Positions 23,155 to 63,100 of a stretch of 64,000 bases of DNA are shown one piece after another. The stretch's first letter is position 1. Each line of letters begins with the position of its first letter. The DNA comes from Adineta ricciae (taxonomy: Eukaryota > Rotifera > Eurotatoria > Adinetida > Adinetidae): assembly GCA_905250025.1 (NCBI GenBank), contig CAJNOJ010000176.1, positions 157,693 through 221,692 of the forward strand. The letters are read 5' to 3'. Below the pieces are notes generated by a model. It was not told the origin of the DNA and made no database searches. It was given only the letters and a program-made list of their open reading frames with translations. Made by a program: the position numbers and the translations under genes.

Positions 23155-23183
23155 CTTTTCTTGGATGAAGAGTAAATGATCTT

Positions 23184-37597: not shown

Positions 37598-40484
37598 TGT
37601 TTTTCGATTGGGTTTTTAAAAAAATCTGAAATTTCAAATCAAAACTCTGTACTTACTGAATAAAGTAGACTGAAGTGTCGTATATTGATTATTAATACCT
37701 TCCTTAGCTCATCAACCAATGCTGGTAGTCAGATGATTACACATTTTGTGACGTGTCTGTATCTTATATATGGTTTTTACTGGTCATCCACAAAAATATC
37801 GGATAGTGAATGTTTCGTTGATGACATTATGTTCCTATGAATAGATTTACAGGAGCGAAAATGAAATCATAGGAAGATACATGTTGAACTCGACGATATA
37901 GGTTTACTATTATTGGGTCACGTCAAGAATTTTGAAGAAGAAACGATTACATCAAGCGTCATTAAAAAGAATTCTTCTGATGTAAAAATAATTAGGAATT
38001 AGTTGAAATTTGTTTCCGATTTCTGTATACTCCTCGATGGCAATGATCAAGTATGAAGGTACAAACTGACGAACGTTTTGATTAACGTACTTCAACCAAC
38101 TCAAAATATAATAGTCTCTAAAATAGAAGTCTATGAAAATAATATCCAATTATCTCATCGAAGACGAAAGTAGTTAAGATGCGACTTATGCGCAGATAAA
38201 CTGGTTAATTGAATTATGCTGCCATTAACATCTTACAATGTATCGAGTAAATCAGTCAGGGATCATCTCTCATAAGGAAAATTTTTAATTGAAAACGTCG
38301 CTTGGAAAATACAAATGCGCTAAAGATGTACTTTGAAAACCTATATAATGTTTAAAACGTTCTGCTTATGAACGATAAAATTCTACTCTCCGTCCCTAAG
38401 ACGCTTTTCGGCGAAGTTTGGATCTTATGGCTAATCAAATGTCATCTTTCCCCAAAAGTTCAATTGCTTCGGAATGTATTTTGAGCACGAAATAAGAGCT
38501 GATATTGGTACATTGGAAAGCGGATAGAATTCATTATGTTACTCGACGGCTTGATAAAGTAAAACTTTCTTCATTAGACTATTCACAAAAACTACTATAA
38601 TTTCATAATAAACTGCAGCTAGAGACGTTTTAGTAGATGCAGTTGTGTTTTTTTAGAAATAAATTAATACCACAAAAGTTTTTGAGGACTAAACAAGCCA
38701 TGCGCCAAATAGATTTTAATCCCTGAAAACAAACTGAGAAGATTCTACTTTGAAGAGTTGTGAAGTAGAAAAGATTCTTTTTTATCACTCAAATTCGATT
38801 AAAGAAAATCTGTTGATCAAAAACATTGCAGTAGTGACTTTCACCTACTTTTTGGTAAGTTAAAAATGTATCATGTGAGCAAAATGAAATTCTGTATCGA
38901 TGATTCTAATAATATCTCATGCATATTCATTCATCTGTTCTTATATAACATCACAGATTTTTACCAGAACTCCGAAGAATCTTGTGACGTGTATTTCTTT
39001 AATTTTCAATTGAAGCTAAGTACGCAAAATAGAATAAAAGATTAGTCTCAAACAATGATGTCTAAATATTTGACATCGCCATCAATAGAGAACGTTTGTT
39101 TTTATGTATTGAATAATTATAGTAACAAATACGACAATGATGTTTATATTATATTTTCTGATTATTTATTAGCTATGTTCTTATAGAAGAAATCTTCTTA
39201 TTATAATCATTTTGACCTGCGGAGGCCGAATATTAAATTCACAAATTTCATTTTATTTTTATCTACTGAGAAATGATCGGAGACTTTTATCATTATTATA
39301 ATAACATAATCATCAAACGATCTTTTTTGTATGTACTTTTCATACTAACAAAGCAAAGCTGTTTTTACATTACAGTGCTATCTGCTGAACCATCAAAGAC
39401 TTCGAATGTATTTTCGATTTGTTTGGTTTTTTCTTCGCGTTAATGATTGAGAAAGAGACAACTGTATCATTGACTACAGACTTCTCCTGCGAACTGCACA
39501 ACGATTTTTCGCAGACATTTTTGTAGTTCTTTTCTAATCGTAACATAACAAAAAGCAGTTAAGACTTCACCGTCTGCAAGGATACTGATTTCAATATATC
39601 AAAGTGTGCTGAAAATCGACTGACACTTTAAGTTTTAAAAGTAAAGTTGTAAAGTATCTTTACTTCGACTTTTAAACTCAAAGCTAACGCACTGCTTCTG
39701 AGAGAGATTCTAGAAGCAACTTTTTCTGCTCGTTTCATATATTTTTGGTTTATTTTAATACAAAAATGTGTTTAGAAACGGTATCCGTTGAAGTCAAATT
39801 GTATGACGTAAAATTCGGTGAGTGTTTATCAGTAGGATAAACACACGATCATAATAAATTGAGCGTTTGTGTCTTGTGAATAAATTAATAACATCCTTTT
39901 TCAAAAGTTCTCAAAATAATTTTGAAAATCAGTTTCTGCTACTAATCATAGTAAGGAAGACTTTTTTGTTAACTGATCACCGTCAACACTAAACATAAAT
40001 ATCAATGGTTTGACAAATAACATTCGTAAAGTAGAACAATCAGGCTAATATGTTCTATATTTCAAAATAGATAACTCATTTAGTTTATCTTTTCGTGTCT
40101 AAAAACAAATATGTAGGTAAAGAAGAACAAATTGACGTAAGATAGGTGAGAATATATAATTCATTTACATTGTCAAGTAAAAATATTTCCCTATCAATGG
40201 AAATATGAAAATAATATTGAATGACTTTTTCAAAACTTTCAAAATTTAGCGATATCTTGTTAGTATATGTATTTAAAACAATATAGTAAACAGCGAAACA
40301 TTTGTTGTCATTCAAAGAAAAAAATACAAAGTAAATTTACATTATACCGTGAACTTATTTAGTTCTCCGTGTAACAGATAGGCATATAAAATATTCATAC
40401 TAAAAATAACATTACTTATCTTTCATTATCCGTTCGCGACCAGTATATATATGTATTAATTTCTTTGCAAATAATACGAGAAAT
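37598..40484. other. gene-poor AT-rich region
   Basis: Nearly 2.9 kb without a supported gene, RNA gene or clear repeat. Minus-strand frames at 37952-38149 and 40085-40315 are short and unrecognised. Confidence 0.4.
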
Positions 40485-42835
40485 ATGCACAATTTTCAAA
40501 TATGTGGTAAGTACGATGCTAAAAGACCACAGACTGTGTCAATAATTTTGATTATTCTCTGTGGTTTAAATAGTTTTTACGGGAATTTTGGCTTCCCTGA
40601 TAACTTTTACTATTGCTGCACCAAGAAATTTCAAAAACATAAATATTGATATAACCGGACGATCCAGTAAGATTGCAAACAATATTTATCGTTTTTATTA
40701 CATATATATTTTAAAAACTCTCTCTTGTCTAAGAATCGAACTGTCGCACGCCATATGGTCCATCGAGTAGATATTCAACTGGTCCATATCCTGTCTTCGT
40801 TACATCAGGCGACTTTAATAATGACAAAAGACTTGATGTAGTAGCAGCCAATTATCATGACAATACTGTAAGTGTGTTATTGGGTGATAGAAATCAAACG
40901 TTTCAGAATCAATCCGTGTATGCGACTGGTATTGGTCCAGTATCTATTGCAGCTGGTGATTTTGATAGTGATGGTAAGCTGGATCTAGCAGTGGTCAATA
41001 TCGATGACAACAGTTTAAGTGTACTACTCGGTAATGGAGATGGAACGTTTCAAAATCAAATTACTTATTCAACTGGTAATCTGCCAAATTCTCTTGCAGT
41101 TGGTGATTTTAATAAAGATAGCAAACTTGACTTGGCAGTTGTTAATCACCGAGATAATAACATCATTATATTCATAGGTAATGGAGACGGTACTTTTCAG
41201 CGTTCATCAATATGTCCAACTAGTAATCTTCCAATATTTATCTTAGCTATTGATTTAACTAATGACAGAAAACTAGATCTAGTGGTTGCAAACTATTATG
41301 ACACGACAATAGGTGTTCTACTTGGAAATGGTGATGGAACATTTCAAAATCAAATGATCTATCCTACTGACCGTGGTCCATCGTCTATCGTAGCAGGCGA
41401 TTTTAATAATGATAAAAAACTGGACCTCGCAGTGGTTAATAATGCTGACGACTCTATGAGTGTACTGTTAGGTATTGGTAATGGAACCTTTCGAAATCAG
41501 AATAAATTTTCGGTTGGCAGTAGTCCGTTATCTATTACAATAGGTGACTTCAATAAAGACACAAAATTAGATGTAGCGATCAGCAATTTTGGAAGTCATA
41601 TTCAACTTATGGATAATGCAAATACTGCCAGTGTGTTACTTGGAAATGGAGATGGTACCTTTCAAAATCGAACTATTTATCCTACAGGTAGGGCTCCATC
41701 ATGCATTATAGCGGGTGATTTCACTCAAGATATGAATTTGGATCTCGTAATAAGCAATATGCTTGACAATGATACAAACTTCCTACGTGGTAATGGTGAT
41801 GGAACGTTTCTAAATCAAAAACAATACGCAACTGGCAATGGTCCAATGTCTATCACAACAGGCGATTTCAATAATGACACAAAATTGGATCTAGCAATAG
41901 CTAATCAAATAGATGCAAGTGCTAGTATACTACTTGGTAATGGAGATGGAAGTTTTCAGAAGCAAAGTAACTATTCTACTGACAAGGGCGCATCGTCTAT
42001 CTCAGTAGGTGATTTCAATAATGACAAAATCTTAGATTTAGCCGTAGCTAATAGTGGTGATAACAGTGTTAGTATACTAATTGGTAATGGAGATGGAACA
42101 TTTCAGAAACAAAAAGTGTATTCAACTGGAAAGAATCCAAGCGCTGTAGTCGTAGCTGATTTCAATCACGATTCAAAACTTGATTTAGCAGTAACAAATT
42201 ACAATGACTTTAGTATTAGTATATTAATAGGAAATGGAAATGGAACTTTTCGGCGTCAAATTCCATACTCGGTTGGAGACTATCCAAGTTCTGTTACAAC
42301 AGGTGATTTTAATAATGATAATAATGTCGATTTAGCCGTACCCAATTATTCTTCCGACACTATAAGCGTGCTGCTTGGGAATGGAGATGGAACATTCCAG
42401 AATCGTACCACGTATCCATCTGGAAGTTCTCCATTATTCATTACAGCAATGGATTTCAATAATGATACTAAACTAGATTTAGTAGTGAATAATCAAGGGG
42501 AGGATAGCATTAGTATACTATTAGGCAACGGAGATGGTACTTTTCAGCCCAGAAAATCGTATATAAGTGGTCCTTATTCATATTCGTTTTTTCCAGCTGA
42601 TTTCAATAACGATAATAAACTTGATGTAGCAGTAATAAACTTTTTAGACAACACTATCAGTGTATTACTTGGTAATGGAGATGGAACTTTGCAACAACGT
42701 ATCATCTATTCCGTTCAAGGATTTCCCATCTCTGTAACAGCAGGAACTTTCACAAATGATAACACCAAGATCGATCTTGTACTGGCCGATCTTGCAAATA
42801 ATAATGTTGCTATACTTTTGAATACATGCTCGTAA
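40485..42835 (+). CDS. FG-GAP/VCBS repeat protein (14 repeats)
   Basis: Three exons, 40485-40506, 40574-40666 and 40734-42835, keep one frame and give 738 residues. The N-terminus MHNFQICVFTGILASLITFT forms a signal peptide or anchor. From about residue 60 to the end there are 14 tandem units of about 46 residues with consensus GDFNNDxKLDLAVxN..DN.. SVSVLLGNGDGTFQ. The D-x-N-x-D loops in each unit are Ca2+-binding, and the units resemble FG-GAP/VCBS blades of integrin-like beta-propellers; 14 would make two seven-bladed propellers. Unit 4 (IDLTNDRKLDLV) and unit 14 (GTFTNDNTKIDLV) are the most diverged. It is likely extracellular or surface-bound. This repeat style is common in bacteria and expanded in bdelloids; the introns show it is settled in a eukaryotic genome. 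Confidence 0.88.
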
Positions 42836-44297: not shown

Positions 44298-47200
44298 ATG
44301 ATCTACAATCGTGAAAATAATGAGTGGATTCAACGACCATCATCTGCACAAGGTAATCTTCAGAGTCATCCATGTTTTCAGTCCAGTCTTCTCGATGATG
44401 GACACGCACCCGGAAGTGTCGAAGTGTGGAAAAAGTCTTCATCTTCCCATCGACCACAACTTCGAATGACAAATGTCGATCGAGATGCAGAAGATTATGA
44501 TCAGAATCTCGAAGCCAAAGCCTATTTTCAATCTGTGAGTCAACCTCCTCTTCTTCTTCTTTCTCACGTGAATAACATTTGATCGGCTAGTTCAAACATC
44601 TGAGACGACTGACGNGATGATGGACACGCACCCGGAAGTGTCGAAGTGTGGAAAAAGTCTTCATCTTCCCATCGACCACAACTTCGAATGACAAATGTCG
44701 ATCGAGATGCAGAAGATTATGATCAGAATCTCGAAGCCAAAGCCTATTTTCAATCTGTAAGTCAACCTCCTCTTCTTTCTCAGATAAATAACATTTCATC
44801 GCCTAGTTCAAACATCTGAGACGACTGACGATCTCTAATCCAAACAACATCCAACAGTATGAGGTAATCTTGCTGAAAAGAGCGAAGAGTTATGCACTGG
44901 TTGGTCTCAAAGGAGAAGTAAGATAAATGATCTGTGACGATGTTGACTTATGTAATTTGTGTGATAGTTGAAATCAAATGAAGAAGAAGTAGAAGTAGAA
45001 GTAAGAAGAGATGTGTGAGAGTGATGAATGATGTAGTGTTATTTGTTGATAGCATGGCAGAACTTCACCAACAAAGAAGACAAACAAAGTAAGTGAAAGG
45101 TGTTGGTGTACACGAAGATGTTGAATGTGTGTCTTTTATTGATTTAGAACAAAGATATTGACGAACAAGATGATCTACAAGTACAATCTCAAAGATCATA
45201 AAGTGAAAGAACACTTTCGATGTGTTGTAGATCGAAGAAAGACTCGATATCAACACACTCGAAGCAATCAAAAGTGCGTTCATGCAAGACTTGTCAGAAT
45301 CGAAATCAGGATGGATGAAGAATGTTCATGTTGATGCATCTGGACAAATGACATTGCAAGACTTCACTCGAGTTCTCAAACGATATGTTGGACGACGTCG
45401 AGGAGTAGGTGTCATTACATCCTCCTTTATTACCTTTCCTTCGTTCTCTCTTCATAATAGATCGATGAACAAATCGAGAATCTGTTCAACAAGATCGATT
45501 ATAATGCTGAAGAGTTGATTTCGTGGGATGAGCTGTGCACATATCTACAACTGAACTTTGATGAGAAATCAGATGCTGAACAACGTGCAAAAGAAGTGTC
45601 ATTCATCATTCCAGCAAAGATCCATAAAACACCACATCGACATCCATGTTCGACTATCGCTCTCTCAGCTGATCATCAATATTTGGCATTGGGAAGTGTG
45701 AGTATCTGTAACTATCACTATTCTTTGTTATCGAATCGATGCGAATAGGATGGAACGATCTCAGTTTGGACAACAAATGGTGAACCGAGAACGACAAAGT
45801 CGATTGCCGTGAGTAACTGAGAGAAACACGAAGAGAAGAGGACGAAACACATGTGCCGTTGTTTGTTGTAGTCAAGTGCAGGTATTTCTCAGACTTTGAC
45901 AGCAAGAGAACGACTCGAAAAGGTGAGATTATCTCTTCTTCTCTTCCACCACCTTCAAGATTAGAATGATGAAATTGTAGAGAAAAGATCAACAAACTCG
46001 ATCTCAACCGAAATGGATCACTGATTGTCAAATCATTCCCGAGTTCAACAAAGTCGTTGTCAGTACCGGGTAACAATCTGTTATTCTTCTCTTCTTTCTA
46101 TAACATCGTCTCTTCTGTTCTCGTTGTTGGTTTGTAGAGATCGTGAACTTCAGTTTTGGGATCAAACATATTGTTTGAGTACGAATCGAGAAACAAAACC
46201 AAACGAACTTCCATGTACACAGATCTCTTCACTTGACAGTACACCCATCAAACTTAACTATGGGTAATCAGATCCATACAATCTCATTCCTCGGATGATG
46301 ATGATGTTGTTGTTTTGTAGAATTCCATCTACAGAAGAGTTGTTGCTTGTGTTTGGTGATACCGAAGGATGTGTCAATATTTTGATGTTTTTTGCTGCTC
46401 GAGAGATCCTTCGACTGTTGACGAATGCTGAGCGGAAGAAAGGTATTCCAACAATGGCATTTGATCGTTTTCTGGAGACATTCAAGTGTGATTATGTTCG
46501 ATGGCAAGTTCATCGAGAATGGATTGGTGAGTCGAGTGAGAGATGTAGATGAGTTTTTGATCCGTTGTGTGTGTTTGTTGCAGAGGGTGTGAGTTATGAT
46601 CCACGATTGAATCAGATCATTTCATGTTCGAATGATGCTCAAACAGCGGTAGTCATTGGTTGTATTCGAACAAGTCCAAGTGCAGAGATTCAGCTGACAG
46701 AAGGTGGTTTTTCTGAACTGAAGTCTCGTTCTGTGAAATCAGCCGATCCTAAGTCACGCAAACATCAAACAACAGCACTGACGGGTGAGTTTCGATGTTC
46801 TTGTGTATGTGTGATGATGTGATATGTAACGATGAATAGATATTACTGAAGAGAAGGCGACATCGACATCATCTCGTGTTCAATCAAAGCGTAGCTCGAC
46901 AGCATCTCATCATACTCCTTCATCTCAAGACCCTCATTCACGAAGACCAACTGCTAATGTGGCCGAGGGTAAAGCTGAGCCAGCAAATGCGACCACAGCA
47001 GTGACGGTGTCGGGCAGTGGTAGTGGAAGAGGAGGAGGAGGAGAAGGAGGATTAGGTGGAGTTCGTTCTCCAGCGATTGTTCGAACTCCTCAGACTCGAT
47101 GTGAAGCTGATGAAATAGTGTTCAAAGTGCAGAAAGGTGTTCGAACATTTGATCTGTGCACGGAAAAGAATGTTCTTGTGACTGGTGGAATGGATCGAAT

Positions 47201-50200
47201 TGTGAGAATCTGGAATCCATATTTGCCATCTCAACCGATCGCTCGACTTCGTGGTCATAATGCACCTATATTTCTTGTGAAGATTGCAGTGGAAGACAAT
47301 CGATTGTTTTCGATTTCAACAGACAAGACAGTTCGGGTAAGTGATGTGTTGATTATTNGTGTTCGAACATTTGATCTGTGCACGGAAAAGAATGTTCTTG
47401 TGACTGGTGGAATGGATCGAATTGTGAGAATCTGGAATCCATATTTGCCATCTCAACCGATCGCTCGACTTCGTGGTCACAATGCACCTATATTTCTTGT
47501 GAAGATTGCAGTGGGAGACAATCGATTGTTTTCGATTTCAACAGACAAGACAGTTCGGGTAAGTGATGTGTTGATTATTCCTTTTTGTGAAAATACATTT
47601 TCATATACACATTTATTGGTGAGACTTTTCGAGTTACAGAAACGAAAAAAGCGCAGAAATAAGTTTTAATTGTGTCTAGCCTTATATAATATCAAGAAGC
47701 GATTTTTCCTTCGGTAACTCAGTTTTGTTCGGCAAACTTGTTCGCTGTAATGCTGAGATTGTTGTATGCAAAGCTTTTGGAGGCGGAAGTGTTACTGTTT
47801 CATTTGGTAGAGCATTAAGAAAAGAAGGAATTTTCGTAAGACTGTAGTTGAAATGATCCAGTATCCAGTCCATAGCAAATTTATCTGTTCGAAGTTTCCC
47901 CTGTCGTGTATATAAACGTACTGCATACATCCATGATATATCATTCCACATCGAATGATATTTCATATTAGCCCATTTATAGGTTTTTTCGAGAGGAATT
48001 TTCCATGAATTATTTGCATATTCGATATTGAGATATTCCACAGGCGAACATGGCACTGAGAATCGATGACCAAAAAGATTACATGAACAGAGTTTTCCAA
48101 TTAATGGAAGAGTACGTCTAAAACATAGCAGACTCCATCAGAAACTATATTTGTTTCTAAAGTTGATCGTTAGTTGACTGTAAAAATGAACTTTAAGTTG
48201 TTTTGATGAATATACCTATACTTTTTTCTATATATCTGAAAACCGAACCATCGATGATTATGCTCACGATACGCCCAGAATAGATCGATTGTATAACGGT
48301 CTGAGTGCAGACGAAACTCGAGTGAATCGTTGACCTATTTCAAATGAACGTATACGTACAAATAATCGAAATGATCATCAACTCACAAATCCCAACGCAC
48401 TCCAGAGAGGAATAACAGGATTCCCAAGGAAATGATTCCGTATACTTTCGTCATATTCTTCAGCATATAAACCAATATCTGTATCTTGTGTGAATGGAAT
48501 CACACCGCAATGTCGATACCAACCTGTGAATTGAGTTCTTTCTTCTAAAATCAAACCAAACGAAGTACTATCATACCTAGTAGAGCTCCACCAGCTAGCC
48601 AATAGCGCTTTTCGAGTTTATCAAGAGTATGGATAACATGTAAGATTGGCTCAACAGTAGTATTGTACTTTGTGCGATTCTGATATAAGTGATACTTGTT
48701 TTCCATTCTGTTTGCTAATGCTCGATTGCAATGTAGAAATTCCGATGTTTTGTATAACCACAAAAAATGTGACACATTTCGAGGGTGGTAAAACAAATAC
48801 TCGTGAAATTCGGTGTCAATACTGGAAACAACGAAACACGGCATGAATAGCTTTTCATACTGGTAAGAAATCTTACTGTTCAACAGCACGTAGTTTGTCA
48901 CCAAAAGATAGATGAATATTGTCACCATCGGAGAATCGAAGATGATTGGGTTGGACAAGGTAAAACGAGTAATATTTGTGTAGAACAGCTAGATGAAGGA
49001 TTTTATGTTGATATGTGATAAAAATATGATCAATGGACATCCGATGATTTGCGAGAGTGGTGGCTGATGTCTGTATAGAGAAGAGAGGCGTTTGTTGAAG
49101 TGTTTGTAGTAATCTCTGAACTGATTGGTCGAAAACGGCAAATGTTACTAACTGTTTGTTGAGTTCATCGAATGACGTGTGATCGATAAATAGTTGATTC
49201 AATGCACTTGGATCGATTAAAATAATATTAAAGCTCATTTGATATAATTGACTAATTACACAGTAAAAAGTCGAGTTTGATCGATATTTATATCGATTTG
49301 CTTTCTATAAGGGACGTATTCACTGTTTTGGTATGCGAGAATGATGCTTCTTACTTGAACTTCACGAATCTCTGATGATTTTCTTATATTCTCGAAAGCC
49401 AGCCATATGATAGCATAGACCAGAAATAAGAATATTAGGAATCTTTTATTGCGATTCAATAAACGAATTAAACTCATTAAATCCAAATAAACTCAGTAAA
49501 TAAATATCGTTAGAAATGTCTTTGAAATATACTTTATTTAGCACTCGAAACAACCATGAAGAACGTTGTTGTACACCCTGAAATGTGACTGTTTTGTGTA
49601 GTAACGACGAAAATGACTTAAGCAGAGCAATTTCTGCAACTTTGTTCTGCTTTCATACAGCATTTCTTTTTCGTTTAACGTAAGCATACATTTTCACAAG
49701 AAGAAAAGATTCTATTTGCACACACAGACCTGAAACATGTTTTCATACCCGTTTCCTTTTCAAATTCTTCACAAATGCATATGTTAATTCCTTCAAAGTT
49801 TATTTTTCTTCTTTGATGCTTAAATAAGCATAAATTCTTGAATGAGTTACAAACACAGAAGAGACCGAAGCATGAGTGGTTTATAAGGTTCATTTCGAGT
49901 AAATTATTAGTGCCTTAGCAGTTCCATAGTTATTGTACGGTTTATACTTAAGCGTACAGATATTAAGATTTAATGTGACTGTTGACAACTTTTAGAATAA
50001 TGAACAGTTTTTGCCAATTTTGTTTTAGGTATGGGATCTAATTGAACACACACTTCTTGCTTGTATTCGACCAAAAGTTCACAAAATACGTGGAGATCTA
50101 CAAGCTGTCTCTTACAATCATCATACACATTCTATTCTCTTTGTTGCAAGTGAACAAATTTCATTTCTTAATCTCAAACTACGGTCAGTCCTCCCCNTGG

Positions 50201-50422: not shown

Positions 50423-50948
50423 GAAAACGCAAACAGTTTTCTTCCGATAAACAAAATGTAGATAATATAAATAGAATACTTATGATTTCTTTGAAAAATT
50501 TCATACAAGCATCGAAATGACAGTCGCTTTATTTTTCCAACAAATCAGACATCTTATCTTTATATTTCGTTTCACCAAGTTTGTTATAATAATCAAATAA
50601 ACTTATAATTTCTATTATCTCAGAAGTATTGTGACTGTCAATTCATATACGAACAAACATTTCTTCTCAGCACAATTGATCGATAACCAAATAATTGAGA
50701 TGCAATTCTCAGTCGTTTCATGAAAGTTTATTATTTCAATTGTAATTGAATCGGCATACAAGATTTGTTTAAACCTAGTCTTAGCTTCTTTCGAAACTAA
50801 ATAACTGGGAGAAATCATTTCACATAGCGAGAAAAACGTGTGCAAAAGTTACGAAAAGCAAAAGTCGCACACCCTCAACACTACATGGGACAGATAAAAC
50901 GAATAAAATTGAAGTTTATTTAATAAGGTTGTGTGCATTTGATTCCTT
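50423..50948. other. convergent intergenic spacer
   Basis: About 525 bp between the WD40-B stop and the cyclophilin stop. No gene is recognised; the minus-strand frame at 50615-50845 is not conserved-looking. Confidence 0.35.
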
Positions 50949-51713
50949 TTATTCGACGATACCACTTCGGGCAATGGCAATCTTAGCTTTTGTAGCTCCA
51001 GATTGCGAACCTAAACTTTCGAGTTTTTTGACAATATCCATACCATCAACAACTTCACCAAAGACAACCTTTTACAACCGAAGGACAAGTTAAATAATAA
51101 ATCTATAAAATTCTTTCAAGGTTTCTTACATGTTTGCCATCAAGCCATGAGGTTACAACAGTGGTAATAAAAAATTGAGAACCATTTGTATTCGGACCGG
51201 CATTAGCCATTGATAAAAGTCCAGGCTTAGAGTGTTTAAGTTGAAAGTTTTCATCGGCAAATTTTTCACCGTAGATACTAAACAAAATCAGATTTTTTCA
51301 ATCGGTTTTCCATCGAAAGTCGTTTACCTTCGACCACCAGTGCCATTACTATAAAAAGAGATATGAGAACACGAGTAGATAATAATTAATTGACTCACTG
51401 TCTAGTGAAATCACCCCCTTGTAGCATAAATTGCGGAATTACCCGATGAAATGTACTTCCTTGGTAACCATAGCCTTTTTCATTTGTGCACAATGCTCGA
51501 AAATTGGCTAAAATATTCGTATTATGCAATAAAGTTCACAAGATTTATTCTGAAAGTACCTGCAGTTTTAGGTACAATTTCATCGAAGAGCTAAAACGAA
51601 GAAAAAATCGTTGAAGATGAGCAGAAAATCTTGTTTTTCCGTACTCTGAACGTAATGCGACCAACAGGATTATTGTCAACCGTAATATCGAAGAAAACGT
51701 TTTTTCCAGCCAT
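50949..51713 (-). CDS. cyclophilin A-type peptidyl-prolyl isomerase (cytosolic)
   Basis: It starts [20 protein letters not shown] at 51713 and stops at 50949. Short introns separate [30 protein letters not shown] then [17 protein letters not shown], a tiny exon NGTGGR, then [20 protein letters not shown] and [17 protein letters not shown], then [20 protein letters not shown] to the C-terminus. The catalytic Arg (FHRVIP), Phe/Met and Gln (FMLQGGDF) and the cyclosporin-contact Trp (SWLDGKH) are all present. No targeting peptide is seen, so it is the cytosolic form, catalysing cis-trans isomerisation of prolyl bonds. It shares exon structure with the gene at 54745-55840 and is its tandem paralogue. 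Confidence 0.93.
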
Positions 51714-52012
51714 TGTTCAACTTCTTTGACCGAACAAAAATGTAAATCTAGAATATCAGATCTGTAGTGAAAAGCATCAGTTAACCAAAAGAGACAGAAG
51801 ATTCATTGCACAATATGTATAAACGCATATCTATATGAGGAAGTAGACATATAAAGAGAAAATAGATACACTTAGCAATATCTGACAACAGGCTAATTGA
51901 TAAGAAAGAAAGAAAGAAAGATTGAGATTATTTTGGGAGAATATTGACTCAAAAACAAGAAAAAGAAAAATTCGCCTTTCGACGAAGAAACTAGCACTGC
52001 AGAGAAGAATTT

Positions 52013-54074
52013 CTATTCGATATTTAATTCATGTAATAAATTCTTCGTCGATTGTTGCAAAGAACACGTTGGTAGATGAGATAACTAAAAAAAAAAACTT
52101 CAATAGAAACCAAAATTTTCCATTTAATCAACTGTAACTTACCCGCATGAGAATCGGCAATCCATTCATATCTCGAATAATCGCTCTACATGTGGAATCT
52201 TTCGCTAAACTTGTCAATGTTATCACAATCGATTCCATTAACGTATCAAAACGTTGAATATCTTCAGGTAGTTTTAATCGATCCCGTTCCAAATTCATTA
52301 ATAATTCAATTAACTTCTGAACTGTATTTTGTTCACATAAATTCGGGATTATTGTTTGAGATAACGACAAATTTCGAATTAAACCGACTGTTGCTCTGAT
52401 AGTTCCCCAATGTCCATTGTAATTCTTATCGCGAAACAATTTCACGATATTACCAATTCCGTATGATTTTCGTACGATTTCACGCGCTTCATTTTCGAGA
52501 TCGTGTCGAGCGGTAACATGACGGAGTGTACATAACTAAACAAATCAATTCTAATAAGTTAATAAAACAACAACAAATTGCTTTTTCATACCGCTGCTTC
52601 GATAAGCTCATCATTTCCATCGGAATTCATCATTAATTTCTGCATGACACTTTGCACTCCGTTCAATTTCACAAATAAACTTTTATTATTTCGATTATCT
52701 GCTGTTAAATTGCCAAGAATTTCCAAGGAGTAAATAACTGATTGACGATCATCACTTGATAACATCGCAGTCAGTTGTTGAATTAACGAATCAATATCAC
52801 GCTGAAACATATAGAAGTTCTTCATTGGGTCGGAAAATATTCCAATGCACTTACCATTTGCGTCGCTTGATTAGAAATATTTCTTAGTGTGATAAGACAG
52901 TTATGTCGTATTCGAATACTCTTCGTCGTGCGTAGATGTTTTTCGATTATATTTAATCCATTTGATCGAAGAATCAAGCTTTTATTCATTTCATTTCCTG
53001 ATGATATGATTGGTAATAGTTTCGATATTGTCAATAGTAATTTATCGTATTTATTCGTTTCGAAGATCCAAAGAAGACGTTGAATGCATTCTTCACTATT
53101 CTGTATGAATTGTTTCGATTTTGTGCTGTAACTTGACATTTTTAGTAAACTGTCAGTGACTAAGGTTAATAATTTATCGTTTGTACTATCCAGTAGATGA
53201 GTGAATTTGATAAGACCTTCACAGCGATAAATTTCGTCAGCTGCTTGATGTTGGAGAACGATCAGAAAATTATGTAATGTTGTTATCGCGTAATTAACGA
53301 TGTTATCAGCACAGCTAAGCAAAGTTTTGAATAGAAAAACAGAAAATTCAGCTGTTAATTGTCTTACTCAAGAATTTGTATTAAACGTGCGATGCCTCCG
53401 CAGTCATAAATGACACGTAGACCTTCTTGTTGTTGAGAGAGTGAGTGAAATAGATTGACTAATGCATGTGTGACCTTTCCATCACCCATATCTTTTGAGA
53501 ATGTCTCCAGTAAAGTGTTAATTAACTAAAAGAATTGATAAGAAAACGAAGGGAGAACAATAAAGTATTTTACCTCGCGATTTTGAATTACTTCCGATCG
53601 ACTTTCATTTCCTTCTTTGACTAAGATGTGTGTGAGTAAGACAGCTTCGCGAACGATAACTGGATCGTCTTCCATCAATAGATTAAGTAATTCAGGGATG
53701 ACTTGAGATGGTTCTGGTTTGGGTGGTGGTCCTGGTACTGATTGTAATTCAGTGTATTGTGGATGAGTATTTTCAATGTCATTAGGCAAGCGAGGAGGCA
53801 TTTGTTCGTACATTGCTGCTCCTGATCCGTGATGTTGAGAACTTGTACTTGCCGAGTCTACACTTCGCAGTGAGGCTGGTCGAGAATTAAAACCAGAATC
53901 ACGTTGCGATGGGCATCCATTTGACATCGGATAGGAATCGTCGAGCCACATGGAAGTATGACTTTCTGAACTGATAGGTTGTAACTGGTTTGATAGAAGA
54001 GGATGTGAAGGATGATGTGTGTGAGGCTTCGATGAATGAGGAACTTGATGGTGCATTGGAGATGGATAGTCCAT
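52013..54074 (-). CDS. beta-catenin-like armadillo protein A (degron kept, C-terminus lost)
   Basis: It starts MDYPSPMHHQVPHSSKPHTH at 54074. The N-terminal tail contains CPSQRDSGFNSRPASLRS. DSGFNS matches the DSGxxS phospho-degron recognised by beta-TrCP, with serines 4 apart as in the GSK3 sites of beta-catenin. No alpha-catenin-binding segment follows. Armadillo repeats run from PELLNLLMEDDPVIVREAVL through AITTLHNFLIVLQ, SIRIRHNCLITLRNISNQAT, YSLEILGNLTADN and GTIRATVGLIRNLSLSQ to DMNGLPILMR. The last exon (52013-52084) is in frame and ends LSHLPTCSLQQSTKNLLHEL NIE then TAG, aligning with [21 protein letters not shown] of copy B. The protein thus stops inside a late repeat, without the last repeats, transactivation tail or PDZ motif. 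Divergent repeats suggest relaxed or changed binding. Confidence 0.82.
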
Positions 54075-54744
54075 GATGATTAACTAGAGAAGTGAAAAGG
54101 CGAATTATGCGTTATACAATGTTCATTATATTTACCTAATCGTATTGAATATGTTCGTCAATGATGAACTCGAATGAGAAAGAGAACGCTAAGCAAACTG
54201 ACACGGCGGCCGCGCTTTGTCCGTTTTTCAACGGATATTCAGTTTTCGTTGTCTTTTATCAACCAATAAAAACACATCTCTTTGGTTACTTGTTACTATC
54301 GAATATCCTCTGTTCGACTTTTCATCCAAAGATTATTTACATTCGACATTCTAGTCATTTGCTCATATCCCAAGCGAAACAACTGCCATCGGTTCAACAT
54401 TTATCAATGAAAAAATCATCTAATTATTCGAATTTCTGACGCCATCTATCCATATTGAAATTTGTACAATCGATATGCACGATTGTACAAATGCCCCGAA
54501 GAAAATTCCAATTTACCCCACCTGCTTCTCTCTGCATAATCGCAAACAATTAATCGATTATTTCACAGCTCATTAAGCCGATTATTTGAATAATGAATGT
54601 TTTTATTGTTTATATGAAAAAAGTGACGGTAGGAAAGACGTTACGTTCAATCACTAGTTTACTTTTTACTAGAAAAAGAGCTAAACACAGTCACAGGATC
54701 AGAAAAACGAGATGCTTGGTTGAAAAAGATGAGCATTCTAATAA
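54075..54744. other. spacer between beta-catenin A and mitochondrial cyclophilin
   Basis: About 670 bp. It should hold the promoter of beta-catenin A and the 3' UTR of the cyclophilin. Plus-strand frames here are not recognised. Confidence 0.35.
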
Positions 54745-55840
54745 CTATTGTTTAGATTTTTCGCTTGCTATTTCTCCGCAATCAGCAATTGTTATCTTCT
54801 TCTGAGTTCGACCTGATTGAGAACCTAATGCTTCGATTTTTTTCACTGTATCCAGACCATCGACAACTTCACCGAAAACAACCTAAATGAAAAGCACATT
54901 CGTTATTTCTTGAATACTTCAACAAATTTCATACATGTTTGCCGTCGAGCCAAGGGGTCGAAACCGTTGTAATGAAGAATTGCGAACCTAAAAAAAGCAA
55001 ATATGAAGATCGATAGACAGAAGATTTGATCTCACCGTTGGTATTCTTGCCGGCATTAGCCATGGAAAGTAAACCTTCTTTTTCATGTCTGATTTGGAAA
55101 CTAAAATCCAGTTTCACAATGGACTAAGTTATAACTACAGTCAGATTTCTTACTTTTCATCGGCGAATTTGTTACCATAGATACTGAAATGAGAGAGATT
55201 ATTTTAGAGTTGTAAAATGACTTTTGACGTTAATTACCTGTATCCACCAGTACCATTACTTAAAATACATAGAAAGAATGATTTGGAGAGCTGAATTTTT
55301 GCGATTTATTTGACTTACTGTCGTTCGAAATCTCCACCTTGTAACATAAATTTAGGAATTACTCGATGAAATGTGGAGTTTTTATAACCAAATCCTTTTT
55401 CGCCAGTACACAAAGCTCGGAAGTTCTCTAAACAAAATCCATTCTTCCATTTCGGATCATATTTCTCTTATCATACCTGCAGTTTTCGGAACGACATCAT
55501 TATAAAGCTAATATTCATAAAAAGAAAAATCTTAAAGATTAAACTTCATTACACACTACTAACTTGAAATGTGATTCGTCCAAGCGGCTTATCTTCTACA
55601 TTCACATCACTAAATGTCGAAATTCAACAATAAAATCCAAGAAACAAAGTCAATTACAAGAAACATTTTGATCGAGACACATCTTTTTTCGATGATCCGC
55701 TGAATATTCCAAACGTTCGTTGCAAACCACACGATTTCTACGATAATCAAAATCAAATTCTATATTCAACTTGAGCATTCATTGATAGAAACCTGAACAT
55801 TCGATGACAAAACATTTCGAAGAAGTGTACGTGAAATCAT
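54745..55840 (-). CDS. cyclophilin with mitochondrial-type presequence (PPIF/cyclophilin D-like)
   Basis: Exon 1 reads [16 protein letters not shown] from 55840. After a short intron the next exon reads [20 protein letters not shown] then SRSKCF. Splicing then gives [17 protein letters not shown], the normal start of the isomerase domain. The first 40 residues are rich in Arg/Ser without acids, typical of a mitochondrial targeting peptide. The domain has [63 protein letters not shown] and [20 protein letters not shown], with all active-site residues. It ends ..[17 protein letters not shown] at 54745. By analogy with PPIF it would act in the matrix and could regulate the permeability transition. 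The localisation is an inference from the presequence. Confidence 0.85.
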
Positions 55841-56161
55841 TCTTCCTTCAACTTTCTTTTGTATGAAAAAATCTACAAATACAATGGAAGCACAAAAATT
55901 TTTATTCAATATATCATTCGTCAAAATCATACGAAAAGAGATTAATCAAAGATTCATTACACACACAAACACGAAACAAAAATGTGACATATTCAGATCT
56001 CAAGGAAAAAAAAGAAACTCAGGATAAGAAAATGGATTGATTAAAAGAGAATATCTAATCTTCTGACATAAAGTAGATCGATATAATATGTATGTAAAGA
56101 TATGTATATATGCACATCAATCAAAAATGAGAATTCTACAACTAAATTTCATGTTTCGTTT
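55841..56161. other. spacer between mitochondrial cyclophilin and beta-catenin B
   Basis: AT-rich 320 bp, mostly 3' flank of beta-catenin B. Nothing else recognised. Confidence 0.35.
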
Positions 56162-58865
56162 TCACAAATCAGTGTCGAACCAAGCAGCCATTTGAGGATT
56201 ATTAGTATTATGAGGTGGAGGTGTTTGATGATGGTTTGACGAACGAGGCGAACCTTGCATCATATCTCGATCGCCGATGAGTACTTGATTATCCATTAAA
56301 CTTCCCAGACCACTACCACCTGCACCTTCAGATGCATAATAATTCATTGTTGGAACATCATGAAGGGGTGGTGGAGTTCCTCGATAGGGATTTGCATATG
56401 TACCATTAGTCGAACCATTTCCCATGCTGTAGTGCTAGAAATGCGCGAGTAAATCAGATTCAATCTCTGAAGAAGATGATTCGTTTAAGACTTACGTTGT
56501 TGATCATATGTTCTTCGCGATACAAAGCTGATGTGACATCTTGTGATAAACGCTTTTTCATATCATACGGTTTATCATCCGATAGACGAAATAGAATTGC
56601 TGCTGCGTATGTAGCTAGAGGAAAACAACTGTGTATAATCTTAAAATAAAGAAGAGTTTCGACTTACCAACGCCTTCGTCACTCGATTTGAGTAATTCAG
56701 TCAGTTTTTGTGTACAATTTTGCTTTTCAACAATGTCTGCACATAAACGATCATTCACGAGTTCACACAAAACACCCGCAGCTGCACGTTGAATTGCAAT
56801 ATTCGATGGTGGATAGAGAAGCTAAACACGCAAATCAATAAACTCAACAAAAAAGGTGAAGAAAACCACAATTTCCTACTCGAACAAATAATGGAATACA
56901 ATCTAAATCACGTATGATTATTCGATTTTGCTGATCTTTCGCAATAATATGTAGGGCACTAACACACGCTTCGAGAATATCATCCATTCGAATATAATTA
57001 TCAATTAATTCAACATTAGGCTGTTGTCGTTGTAATTCCTGATGACTTCGAACGAGTAACTGTGCTAATTTCTGTATCGAACCCGTTTCACGCAAAACTG
57101 GAAGATTATTGGGCGACAAAGCTAAATTTCGCACTAGACTTATAGTCGATTTGATAATAGGCCATGAATAGATTGCCGGATTAAGTAATTCAACAATTGG
57201 TAATAGACCATTGACATTTCGAACTGTATCTTGTGCTTCTGCCGCATGGGAATGTCGAGATGTAATATGTCTTAATGCGCAAATGGCTGGTTCTAGAATT
57301 TCTTCTTTATCATGACCTTGAATAATCGCGTTGATCAATCCATGAACACCATTCGATTGAACAACAGCCATTTTGTTGTATTGGTTATTACATGTCAAAT
57401 TGGAGAGAATGCCGACAGCACATGAAACGGTGATGAGATCGTTGGTTTGTAATAATTCAATGAGTAAGCGAAGGAGTGAGTCAAGATTTTCCTAAAAGAA
57501 AAGGGTTTCTTTAGGAAAAAATAATGATTTGTTAGTCTACGAACTAGTTTAACAGCTTGATCGGAAAGATTTCGAAGAATTTGTAAACAATTTTGTTGTA
57601 CACGTAAGCTTATTGGTTGATATAATTGTTTTTCAAGAATTTGAACTGCATTTTTCGATATCATGACGATTTTGATGGATGGACTGACCGATAAAACTCG
57701 AAGAAGACGTGTTGTTGTCCATAACAGTTTTTCATAATCTGTTAATTCCAAAATCCGTAACAGTTGTTGAGGACCATTGCTTGATTCGATAATGATCTAA
57801 ATCGATAAACATAGAGATAATCATTTCTTCTGAAATCGAGTTCGTTTCAAAGCTTAAAATGCGTCACCGAGAACAAAAGACAAGAAGCCATTCTAGTTTC
57901 CTTTGTCAATACTGCAAAACTTACCAAACAAACAAGAAAAAGACTTTCTAAACACATGGACAGCGAAATGACGGCGACTTTCATGCTTATTTACCTTCAC
58001 TTCTTCATTGTTGAATGCTAACATATGAAGACAATCAGTAAGAATAGCCAAAAACTTCGGATTGGTACTGTTTAACAATCCCACCATTTTCTGACAACCA
58101 CCACAACGAAGAATTTCCAATTTAGCATTCTCTAAATGTAACAATAAATTGTGTAACGTCGAGAGTGAGTAATTAACCACGGATTCAATCGATGAACTAG
58201 AAAACGACAAGAAAGGATAAGACAAGAGAGGAAAAATATTCTTACTCGAGAAGTCGAACAAGAATTGGAATAACACCACCTTTGAAAAGTAGAACAAGGC
58301 CTTGCTTTTGATGAGACAGACAATGAAACACCCCTGCTATTCCACGACGTGTTTCATCGTTAGCACGTGGATTAGAGATCGCTTGAATTAAGGCTTGAAT
58401 CATTTGTGGAGTAGATAAAGCTATTCGGCTTGCTTCTTTCTTTGCTAACGTATGTAAAATCAATGCAGCTTGACCTGAAACAATCGGATCATCATCGCTC
58501 AATAAACGAATCAATTCCGGAAGAGCTTTTTCAGTTATATCAGCATCCTCTTTATAATTAATGATATCAATGACAGCATTTTTTAACAATTGTGATGGCT
58601 CGGCAAGTTTCTGAACGGCCGTCGGTTGACCATTAGCAAATTGAGGTGAAGCCATTGGCATGGATATTCCACCAGCTACACCATCTTCGAGGGTCTCAGG
58701 AAATATCGCTGCGCGAATACGTTGAGCACGTGTTGAACTCAACTGGGCACTCATTGATTCAATATGTTCCTGGACCATATAATCGTCCATATGACCATTA
58801 CGAACATGAGAACGATGACCATGTCCATTCATTCCATTTGTCGTTGGATAAGTTTCGTACTCCAT
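56162..58865 (-). CDS. beta-catenin/armadillo B (adhesion-type features kept, degron absent)
   Basis: It starts [20 protein letters not shown] at 58865. The N-tail has no DSGxxS. It does have [19 protein letters not shown], a near-exact match to the alpha-catenin-binding segment of beta-catenin. Twelve armadillo repeats can be followed: [132 protein letters not shown] and [19 protein letters not shown]. The Tyr equivalent to human Y654 is kept, while the Y670 position is Met (YDMKKR). The C-terminus ends AAWFDTDL, the classic PDZ-binding end of beta-catenin. Cadherin-bound junction scaffold and possible TCF coactivator; its turnover should not depend on beta-TrCP. Confidence 0.93.
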
Positions 58866-60196
58866 GGGAAGATCAGAAGAGATTTATCGAAATAAAACAC
58901 AAACGATTGAACTCTATCCAGCACTAGTTAAACTGTATTCTGATTCGCCATATTGTTTATTCGATAGTACATTGAACAAGTTAAACAAATAAACAGAACA
59001 GAACGGACAAATAATTGCTACGAAAAAAAAATCTTTCTGAAAATATGTCATTCTTAGTATTTCATAAAAAAAACGAGAAAAATGCAAATTTTAGGATATT
59101 AGTCGAGAAAATATCAATTCTGGCAATAGATGGCGCGCATTGATACGATAACGCAGTTGACCTATGGTCATATATATATTCAAGATATGTACGGCAGAAC
59201 TATATGTTGAATAGAATCATAAAAAGACGGTACGTATGCCCTACTGAACATTATCGAACGAATAAGAGTCATTATTTCTACTTTTACTGTTGTAAATTTA
59301 TATGACAAAGCGAAAGTAAGTTTTGTTCATGATTAAAAAACCGTTATAATCTTCGCACATATTCAAAAGTAGAAGAAATAAAACTCGTTTATCGGTGTAC
59401 TTCCAAGGCTATGTTGTGTAAATATGTCAATAATAAGTTTCATTGATGATTGTCTTACGCTCGAAAAATCTTTGAATTTTATTATCATATATTCCTCATG
59501 AATAGCTGTCAAGAAGTTATATAATAACCAAAATCGATAGAAAGCAATTTCGAACCTTCTCGTTCGTTTATCTTTTCATTTTCAAGTCAAACATAGATAC
59601 TCATTTCGAAGAATGTATTTGCTCTCGTTAAACAGTCTCTTGTTGTTTTTTTTTTCAAAGAAAATCACGGTGCACGTTCGATTGTTGTTGAACAAATGTA
59701 GTTTTAGTTTAATAAGAAGTTTTTATTATATGTAATTGCTAATCTATCATTAACCGAACAATAATATAAAACAAGTTGAATAAAAGTTTGTAAAAAACGG
59801 ACACATATGTAATTTGTATATAACTCGCTTATCAAAGAAAATAGAAGAAGAGAAACAAGAAGGAGAGTCGATTTTGACTTCAAAATCTCAATCAAATCTT
59901 GTTTTCTTATACAAAAACTGTCAAATACTCGTTCAAATGTCGACTGTGAATGTTTCTCGCATTAGATTGCTGTAATAAGGCTGATGCTGATGTTCCAAGA
60001 TCGGTTCCAACACCACTGATCGATGACTGCAAAGAAAAAATAACATTCGAAATGGATTTTTCAAAACTTCATGCAATTTGATTAATAAAGATGCAAGCAA
60101 TGATTATCAAAGACGAGTAGATCTATTTGATGTATTAAAGTTAGTTACACGCAAAACAAAAACAAAGCGTTGACAAAATGAAAAAAAAACCTAAAT
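58866..60196. other. spacer between protocadherin and beta-catenin B
   Basis: About 1.3 kb, AT-rich, containing the beta-catenin B promoter and the protocadherin 3' UTR. A short exon-like stretch near 59940-60030 (cattagattgctgtaataag) is not assignable. The poly-T run near 59647 and the small minus-strand frame at 59704-59895 are not called. Confidence 0.35.
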
Positions 60197-63100
60197 TTAG
60201 CAACGAGTAGAAGCAATGGGGCTGAATCGAGCATTAAGATAGCAAAAGCTGTTGTCTCCTACTTCAACTGTTGCTGCTGCTGTTGTTTGTTGTCGACAAG
60301 CATCAACAATGGCTGTCGCACCTGAGGAGGAGGGAGAAGAGGAAGATAAGAATAAGTGAGTTGACGTGCTCGATAATAATGAATAACAATGAGAACAAAC
60401 ATGATTAATGAAATGATTAGAGTTAGAGCAAGCAATACAAGCATTAGTTAATGGTTGAACTCTATGGACTACCTCGTGAGATTCGGATATAATATCCATT
60501 GCATCTTCAGATATCGCAGGACGTCGGAGATCCATTGAACGTCTTTGTTGTTGATTATTAACCCATTGCATGTCTTCATTAATTGTGTCCAAATGTGTAG
60601 GAGGTTCGTTCGATTCACGTATGGTTGTACGGAATGAACCTGTATTTGTCGGTGCTGGCCGATCACTAACATCGGATGAACTTGACGAACTGCTCGTCGA
60701 ACGATTGTCGTATGTTGATAGTAATTCTTCGATCGTTGTATTTATCGGTGGTTCGCTGACTTTGTAGTGTCCGGAAAGAAGACGGTTGTTAATTGGTGAT
60801 GACGTTGTTTGTTCACTGCTATGTGATGAATCGTCATCACGTACACCCAACGCATAAGGTGAAGATTCGACGATAGGAGTTTTTGATTTCAGAAATGATA
60901 TTCCTTGCGCTGATGAATTCTGACTGATTTTGAAAAATGGTGGAACGCGATGTTTAGCGCGTTGGATATTATAATAAATAACAATAAATAATATTGCAAT
61001 GATAATAAGGATAAATGCACTGACACTTGCTATGATCGCATAAGTTGTACTATTGTCTGCGGATCGAGATGTACCAATCGTTGATGCTGGATATGAGTTT
61101 GATGGTAAATTGCGAATTGTTACAATAACATCAGTGGAAAGATTCATTTTTAAAGTTGAACAGACTTGTTGAACAGTGATTTGAAATTGATAAGCTTCTT
61201 GAATCGGTGATGTAGATGTATTGGACCAAGTTAGATTACCTGTGGAAGAAATTGAGAAGAGAGAATCATATGGACCAATGATGGAATATTGCACTTGACA
61301 ACGATTATCTTTAATGATCTAAATGAAAATGAAAGAAAATGTGAAAAGAAGAGTTAGATTGAAGAATTTTCTCACTTGAATTGTACCAATGTTTGAGAGA
61401 GAATCATTAAGTGGATAGTCGGCTGACAATAGATATGAATTCATTAGGAAGGCTAAGGGTGTATAGAGATAAACATGAAGGTCGGTCTGATCTGACTGAA
61501 ATTTTACCAAGAAAATTCAATTGATGATTAATTACATGTAGAAAAACTTACATATTGTCCATCAGAAACATTCAAAACACAGATACATGTTTGACAAACA
61601 GGAAGATTTTGAAAATTCGTTAGTTGTAATCGAAATTGACGAAGACTAAATGATCGAACACAACACCGATGAATTCCTATACATCTAAAACGATCTTACC
61701 TAGTTTTTACAATTTGCAAATTAAGCGATGATGAATCACACGAGTAACTATACACTAATCTCGGATTCTAAACAAAAACTAACTCTAAAAAACTTTCAAT
61801 TGATTAATTTCTTCTTTACCGCATCCATATCACTAACAGTTCCATTGACTGTTGGTATCTGATCGAGATTATTCATTGTATATCCGACCATGATGTAAGG
61901 CGAAGAAAGAAACCTTGGTGGATACAGATTTAACTCATAGATATTTACATGTAACACAGTTGTTGCAAATCGATTCGGATTATTTTCTTGTTCAGCCTAA
62001 TCAACGAAAAGAAAATATCAATTAAAACTTCAATCATGCACTAATTTTACTTTAATTAACAGATCGAACTGAGCTATTGAATCCAAATTCGATTGAAGAG
62101 TAATAACACCTGTGTATTTATCAATATTAAAGTACATATCTACGAAAAATAACATTGAACACATTTAGATAAAACGTCTATCTTCATACTCGATGTGGAA
62201 AATGAATAGATGATCGTTGCATTGATTCCAAAATCTTGATCATACGCAAAGATTCGTCCTTCTTTCGGCACTACTTCGTAACCCTAACATAAAGAAAAAA
62301 GGTAAATAGATTTCAATAAAAATGTTATAGACTGTACAATAGTTGTGTCGATAGAAATGTTTAGATTATACGACGTGGATATTCGAAATTTCGGATCTAA
62401 GTTATCCACATCGATGAGATGTATTGAAACAATAGTTTGCGATGACAATGGTGGATTGCCGTTATCCTAGAGACAAGAAGTGATTCAAAATTTTCAAATC
62501 GAATTCGGTTACTTGTGCAACAATGATTAAATTAAAGTTTGGTACCATTGAATTATAATCAAGTGGTCGAACTAATATCAGACTAGCATTTGTTGAGCTT
62601 ACCAATCGAAAATATGACTACGAACGAATAATCAATAAGCTTCAATGAAATTCAACGAAACGAATTCTCTTACCGCATATGACGAGAGATTATTCTGTAA
62701 AGAGTATGAAAATGTACCCGAGGCTCCCGAATCCGGATCGGTAGCTGTGATTGCGGTGGATACAATGGTGTTGACCGAAGTTGTTTCAGTTAGATTTATA
62801 TGATAGATTGATTGAGAAAATGTCGGAGGATTATCATTAATATCGATGAGATCAAGTTGAAAGTCAATATCATGAATCGATCGATCGGATAAAACTATAC
62901 ATTCGACTATAAAACGAAAGGGATTGGGAAAACCATTCGATGTCCACCATTCATAATCCAAGGCTAAATGAAATATAATAGCATTGCTTCGCAATGTCAA
63001 ATGATGTCAAAACTCACGAGAACGTAAATATAAATCAGTGAAATTTAAGGTAAAATAATCGGTTCCATTGGTTTTTACATCTGAACTATTATAAATCAGT

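Follow-up and report, generated by a model that had tools for sequence, protein, structure and literature searches.

In most animals a single protein, beta-catenin, serves both cell junctions and Wnt signalling, and why this should be so is a long-standing question. It is raised anew by a locus of the bdelloid rotifer Adineta ricciae. In a stretch of 64,000 nucleotides (hereafter the window, G000:C176:157693-221692, from an assembly of 130 Mb), two neighbouring beta-catenin genes, copy A and copy B, carry complementary sets of beta-catenin motifs. Do they divide the work of the parental protein as well? We consider the chances about even that A and B arose by an old tandem duplication in the bdelloid stem and share out this work, A being a degron-controlled Wnt form and B a junctional form.

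Two beta-catenin genes with complementary motifs

Copy A (52013..54074, minus strand) is modelled as a protein of 597 amino acids (aa) from six exons, with GT-AG introns throughout and a TAG stop at 52013. It reads MDYPSPMHH...QRDSGFNSRPASLRS...LLHELNIE and then TAG. The degron-like motif DSGFNS lies in its N-terminal tail (53883..53900, minus strand; residues 59-64); at the sequence level its serines are spaced as S33/S37/S41, and the S45 register is absent. The motif RAQRIRAA of the alpha-catenin-binding segment was not found in copy A, and the position of Y142 is deleted in the seven A rows compared. The final exon (52013..52084, minus strand), LSHLPTCSLQQSTKNLLHELNIE followed by TAG, is homologous to the first part of exon 5 of B. 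According to a structure alignment, the last residue of A corresponds to about residue 624 of vertebrate beta-catenin. The protein ends ahead of the last repeat and is devoid of repeat 12, helix C, and the C-terminal transactivation tail; what remains is predicted to fold as the armadillo-repeat superhelix of beta-catenin. In the public annotation, A (P0001, 556 aa) is shorter by 41 residues at the N-terminus (window positions 54074-53952). The MDYP start is backed by the orthologues P0002-P0006.

Copy B (56162..58865, minus strand) codes for a beta-catenin of 743 aa from seven exons (58865-58246, 58196-57995, 57796-57545, 57491-56880, 56821-56668, 56614-56496, and 56434-56162), again with GT-AG introns throughout and with a TGA stop at 56162. 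It begins with MEYETYP and ends with AWFDTDL. Its first exon lacks DSGxxS and contains TRAQRIRAA (58707..58733, minus strand), the start of the alpha-catenin-binding segment; its final exon (56162..56434, minus strand) encodes the C-terminal tail, of which AWFDTDL is a PDZ-ligand-type end. B has the repeats, the alpha-catenin segment, the binding groove, and the terminal DTDL by which a beta-catenin is recognised.

An earlier, sequence-only reading of this DNA had proposed just this partition: a degron with serines four residues apart in A, which stops at TAG without an alpha-catenin segment or C-terminal tail, and a B with both the segment and the terminal FDTDL and without DSGxxS. The spliced models bear it out, and the second haplotype shows the same stop in A and a B that is likewise degron-free. 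Two ways in which this reading might have failed were followed up. A continuation of A into further repeats was looked for in the unspliced frames between A and the next gene, and no remnant of repeat 12 or of a tail was noticed there. An upstream exon supplying B with a degron was sought over 1351 nt (58846-60196), which take in the initial 20 nt of B; neither [DE][ST]Gxx[ST] nor DSxxxS occurs in the three unspliced minus-strand frames, a scan that would overlook a motif interrupted by an intron.

The imperfection of public models, of which P0001 with its 41 missing residues is an example, could suggest that A is a pseudogene or that its stop stems from faulty assembly or gene modelling. We attach practically no weight to this possibility. 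On the second haplotype (contig C235) A and B are both intact and the stop of A is at the identical position. The ratio of nonsynonymous to synonymous substitution rates (dN/dS) between the haplotypes is 0.071 for A, which indicates purifying selection (0.021 for B), and there is no N base inside A or B; together, these observations rule the artefact out. Further evidence against it comes from the A orthologues of Adineta and Rotaria, which terminate at the same place (the A2 class, introduced below, adds a short low-complexity tail), and from proteins of 586-636 aa encoded on contigs of 1.9-3.0 kb, which are probably intron-free transcripts, the contigs themselves not having been seen.

Conservation and history of the bdelloid locus

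The partition is conserved among bdelloids. We compared 28 A-class proteins from Adineta, Rotaria, Didymodactylos, and environmental sources (the fragments P0028, P0030-P0032, and P0059 being excluded) with seven B-class proteins, which are the bdelloid entries among the best 120 of 1210 matches. Only one of the 28 A-class proteins, P0027 (a Didymodactylos model of 552 aa), lacks DSG(F/I)(N/H)S; of the other 27, 25 have DSGFNS and 2 have DSGIHS. None of the 28 has RAQRIRAA or ends with W(F/Y/L)D(T/S)DL. In the B class, DSGxxS is found in none of the seven proteins and RAQRIRAA in all of them, while the W(F/Y/L)D(T/S)DL end is seen in four, the remaining models being partial or fused. With 27/28 against 0/7, the association between degron and class is not due to chance. 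The degron block is also the longest invariant run in the N-terminal tail of A (SQRDSGFNSR, in nine proteins from Adineta and Rotaria).

Didymodactylos is sister to the other sampled bdelloids, according to PMC7943196. Its only B protein (P0068, partial) reads MWMHNQNNHYHDSDIHSTATSY, in which DSDIHS is a recognisable degron with the glycine replaced. Its two A proteins in the alignment extend into repeat 12, by 22 residues beyond the end of Adineta A. Because B has an altered degron and A runs longer in this genus, the reciprocal loss looks stepwise, with Didymodactylos as a transitional form.

How the pair arose can be read from the locus. The sequence-only reading had taken A and B to be adjacent; they are indeed neighbouring genes on the same strand, but a cyclophilin gene (approximately 54760..55650, minus strand) sits between them. 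A second one follows A (approximately 50940..51720, minus strand), so that the minus-strand order is B, cyclophilin, A, cyclophilin; the two cyclophilins are 75% identical. Since each copy has its own following cyclophilin, the duplicated unit apparently consisted of a beta-catenin plus a cyclophilin gene. In the gene models, read by eye, A and B have three intron positions in common (after LLD/ILD, VKL/TQM, and FVR/LMR), and the final exon of A matches the start of the fifth exon of B, with a shared intron after ..[MV]R.

At a third, more diverged locus (contig C45), the paralogues B2 and A2 are arranged likewise, each with a cyclophilin gene after it. A1 and A2 are 69% identical, B1 and B2 62%, and synonymous divergence (dS) between A1 and A2 is saturated. 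Degenerate tetraploidy has been reported for all bdelloids examined (PMC7943196), and A1 and A2 are each found in both Adineta and Rotaria; from this we infer that the tandem duplication preceded the bdelloid genome duplication. The same gene order is seen in another species, Adineta steineri, where a public model (P0064) joins a B2-like beta-catenin and a cyclophilin into one gene; the fusion is probably an annotation error.

Among the best-scoring matches of the A. ricciae genome, the only further gene is a very divergent A-like one (locus L031, G000:C42:~406100-408300, minus strand), pieces of which are 33-42% identical to A or A2. In a tree that omits nine rows of the 45-row tree described below and adds this gene, it sits on a long branch and joins the A clade at 94/86. 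There is no cyclophilin in the 9.9 kb covered at this locus, and no degron in its modelled part, the N-terminus of which is unreliable.

Elsewhere in the window, single N bases at 23426 and 47358 have repeated coding sequence on both sides and lie inside open reading frames (23169-24023 and 46836-47669); these positions are likely assembly joins with a duplicated overlap. Beside B, an open frame at 60197-61318 (minus strand) has by eye a likely membrane-spanning segment and a Ser-rich tail, with no Pfam match. Other frames, likewise judged by eye, are an uninterrupted one of 700 aa with repeats resembling FG-GAP/VCBS (40733-42835, plus strand), one resembling an OTU protease (20113-21228, plus strand; GDGNCLY), and one resembling a seven-helix receptor (36617-37615, minus strand).

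Corresponding types in monogonont rotifers

An orthologue search in monogononts had been suggested as a means to date the split. Both motif types exist there, and the split looks parallel. A profile search (best 120 of 1424 matches, with some proteins added from another search) gave two monogonont beta-catenin types, each anchored by one named protein from a different species: type E by P0194 of Brachionus plicatilis and type X by P0206 of B. calyciflorus. All 40 type E proteins counted have (D/E)SGxx(S/T), mostly as ESGYST; none has RxQRIRAA or a DTDL end, and in 36 of them Gln makes up at least 20% of the last 80 residues. Among the nine type X proteins counted, no degron was found, TRSQRIRAA is present in eight (P0199 begins after that site), and the DTDL end is present in all. 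These counts omit the fragments P0052, P0200, P0207-P0209, P0214, P0215, P0217-P0219, and P0221 for E, and the proteins P0038, P0238, and P0253 for X. Three X proteins (P0202, P0204, and P0206) have, near the N-terminus, the strings ETIKSS, ESIRSS, and ETIHKS, of the E(S/T) type with a serine at +4, which may be degron remnants.

That the motif partition is identical in both rotifer classes might point to one old split in the rotifer ancestor, with A equal to E and B to X, and with gene conversion, for which the tandem arrangement in bdelloids gives an opportunity, mimicking the sisterhood of A and B. The trees make this very improbable. Bdelloid A and B form a clade at 100/99 in a tree of 45 rows and at 100/99.7 in one of 36 rows; A thus groups with the beta-catenins, inside a clade with bdelloid B, p120 relatives not being among the rows. 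(The 45-row tree is the 36-row tree without X38, X39, Nymphon, fish plakoglobin, E41, and A_meta, and with 15 rows added.) A single shared duplication, ((A,E),(B,X)), is rejected by the approximately unbiased (AU) test, with p from 3e-5 to 7e-4 and a log-likelihood difference of 39-48 under LG+F+R5 and LG+C20+F+G4. With the 36-row set, A+E alone has p 0.0054 and B+X p 0.0008. In the 45-row set, for which four of seven planned constraint trees and no free tree were compared, an arrangement that makes clades of both A+B and E+X survives the test (p 0.12 and 0.16). At the position of vertebrate F253, N is found in 10/11 A and 5/5 B proteins, while E has mostly S (7/8, N in 1/8) and X mostly F (5/6). 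Long-branch attraction between A and E would favour an A+E grouping, yet none was recovered.

The 36-row tree unites A, B, E, and X in one clade at 97/92, which would suit an old common split; the 45-row tree leaves the clade of the four types open. The 36-row tree also has no joint clade of E and X, and holding these two together is barely rejected in this set (p 0.047), which goes against a tidy monogonont story. As the AU tests reject the pairing of A+E and B+X, a separate duplication in bdelloids and in monogononts looks to be the better reading. Its support is strong and not final, because long branches, flagged in the tree analysis, meet at A.

A possible division of labour and comparison with known systems

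The functional steps that we infer for a division of labour would be the following. In the bdelloid stem, a segment with a beta-catenin and a cyclophilin gene would have been duplicated, prior to the bdelloid genome duplication, and complementary loss would then have split the parental functions. By loss of the phospho-degron, B would have become a constitutively stable junctional beta-catenin, joining cadherin to alpha-catenin and, via its FDTDL end, to a PDZ protein. By loss of the alpha-catenin segment, repeat 12, helix C, and the tail, A would have become free of adhesion and controlled by the destruction complex: phosphorylated at DSGFNS, it would be removed via beta-TrCP; stabilised by Wnt, it would bind TCF through its groove. 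Regulated Wnt output would then run via A, with co-activators presumably recruited by its N-terminal part. We lean towards A as the carrier of this output because the best-scoring matches of the genome include no beta-catenin type with a degron other than A and its paralogue A2.

Among the Wnt pathway partners, matches to Wnt, TCF, DIX, and beta-TrCP are present in the genome, and the PF01044 matches do not tell alpha-catenin from vinculin. A regular expression for the N-terminal motif of TCF gave nothing over six TCF flanks; the exon may be more distant. TCF/LEF HMG boxes occur at two loci per contig on C54, C58, and C64 (L038-L042, L046-L051), and TCF may thus also be duplicated, by analogy with planarian TCF-2.

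Several points weigh against assigning signalling to A and adhesion to B. The contact sites of the groove, the BCL9 contact D164, and the roles of individual residues are taken as known for beta-catenin. On this basis B retains the groove for TCF, APC, and cadherin (18 of 24 sites) and is not adhesion-only by its sequence. In the six A proteins scored, 9 or 10 of the 24 sites differ from Xenopus; the A of the window has ten differences, including F253, F293, K345, W383, and N430. A also lacks the C-terminal transactivation region, which is thought to be needed for canonical activation. The Pfam models for the TCF beta-catenin-binding domain, the APC 20-aa repeats, the BCL9 HD2, and the Axin beta-catenin-binding motif (PF08347, PF05923, PF11502, and PF08833) have no match in the genome, and none in the control genomes either, so that absence is not shown. 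No clear LRP5/6 has been reported for A. vaga (PMC8711157). Planarian beta-cat3, which has the architecture of A, inhibits a TCF reporter, according to PMC5643146. The separation of degron and adhesion modules proposed by the sequence-only reading is thus real, old, and conserved as a complementary loss, but a clean split between signalling and adhesion does not follow from the sequences, because B keeps the groove and A, with its degron, has no transactivation region.

The main alternative, a dominant-negative A that binds TCF without activating it and, when stabilised, competes there with B (or with a small amount of nuclear B), is possible and in our view rather unlikely. A planarian parallel exists: beta-cat3 is an inhibitor in TOPflash and binds both TCF and beta-TrCP (PMC5643146), and beta-cat3/4 compete with beta-cat1. 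Helix C and the tail are wholly missing from A, and B has a groove plus a C-terminal tail. However, the inhibited planarian partner, beta-cat1, has both degron and tail. No beta-catenin with degron plus tail is among the best-scoring matches of the A. ricciae genome, so that there would be no activator under Wnt control. In monogononts, moreover, the counterpart of A mostly keeps a Gln-rich tail.

Still less probable, and in our opinion doubtful, is that Wnt signalling and adhesion are not divided at all, that A has drifted to another role (e.g., as a stress- or germline-specific scaffold), and that B does both, its stability being controlled otherwise. A does evolve much faster, its stem branches amounting to 0.94+0.67 changes per column as compared to 0.15+0.15 for B; B has retained groove and tail, and the LRP5/6 report for A. 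vaga would fit. Mere drift is at odds with the invariance of the degron block, with groove residues of A that are conserved above background, with the pathway matches in the genome, and with the same partition in monogononts.

Returning to a division of labour between A and B, we propose tentatively, at somewhat below even chances, that both rotifer classes have split beta-catenin independently and alike, and that the only Wnt-regulated form of bdelloids is without a C-terminal transactivation domain. If true, canonical output in bdelloids would either be independent of the C-terminus or be inverted, with stabilised A displacing a constitutive TCF partner, and the Didymodactylos pair would represent a reciprocal loss caught half way. 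In rotifers the two roles of beta-catenin appear to have been separated in nature two further times, independently. The one in bdelloids comes with ordered intermediates: tandem duplication, genome duplication, and a stepwise loss of degron and tail that may be visible in Didymodactylos. With a degron and groove and without a transactivation tail in A, bdelloids would allow the need for a C-terminus in Wnt output to be tested directly.

The sequence-only reading had regarded the complementary loss as new for rotifers. Among the open-access papers listed, none describes a rotifer beta-catenin pair by title or start of abstract, a scope that mostly leaves out subscription journals. The words rotifer, Adineta, and Brachionus are absent from a 2011 survey of the catenin family (PMC3141441, word search), and in a bdelloid paper (PMC10809525) beta-catenin appears in a reference only. 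The claim stands to this extent; the kind of split is known, and the architecture of A has a precedent in planarian beta-cat3.

Segregation of adhesion and signalling among beta-catenins is already known from planarians and C. elegans. The closest match to A is the C-terminally truncated Smed-beta-catenin3 (and 4) of planarians: as described in PMC5643146, beta-cat3 has kept the GSK3 sites and has neither an alpha-catenin site nor a C-terminal transactivation domain. Planarians also have an activator, beta-cat1, with degron and tail, an equivalent of which was not found among the best-scoring A. ricciae matches. A is a bdelloid duplicate in tandem with B, and its truncation also removes repeat 12. 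The bdelloid A+B clade, set against 29 other rows (none named as flatworm), argues for an origin separate from flatworm beta-cat3/4. Planarian beta-catenin1/2 likewise comprise one Wnt paralogue without an alpha-catenin site and one junctional paralogue (PMC5643146). There, beta-cat1 has a transactivation tail, which A has not, and beta-cat2 has lost the binding of Wnt partners, whereas B keeps the groove.

In another lineage of small animals, C. elegans has distributed adhesion and signalling over BAR-1, HMP-2, WRM-1, and SYS-1. These are four strongly diverged genes, which are not known to be tandem neighbours that lost complementary parts. The beta-catenin duplications of C. elegans are covered in PMC3141441. 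Vertebrate plakoglobin is also a beta-catenin duplicate specialised towards junctions, but it has retained DSGxxS (DSGIQS in the fish proteins P0033 and P0035) and shows no reciprocal loss of the degron. Drosophila Neural Armadillo is truncated, has no transactivation tail, and inhibits in TOPflash (PMC5643146); it is a splice form of one gene, whereas A is a separate gene that is also without the alpha-catenin segment. The same paper describes the known truncated, inhibitory beta-catenins as convergent.

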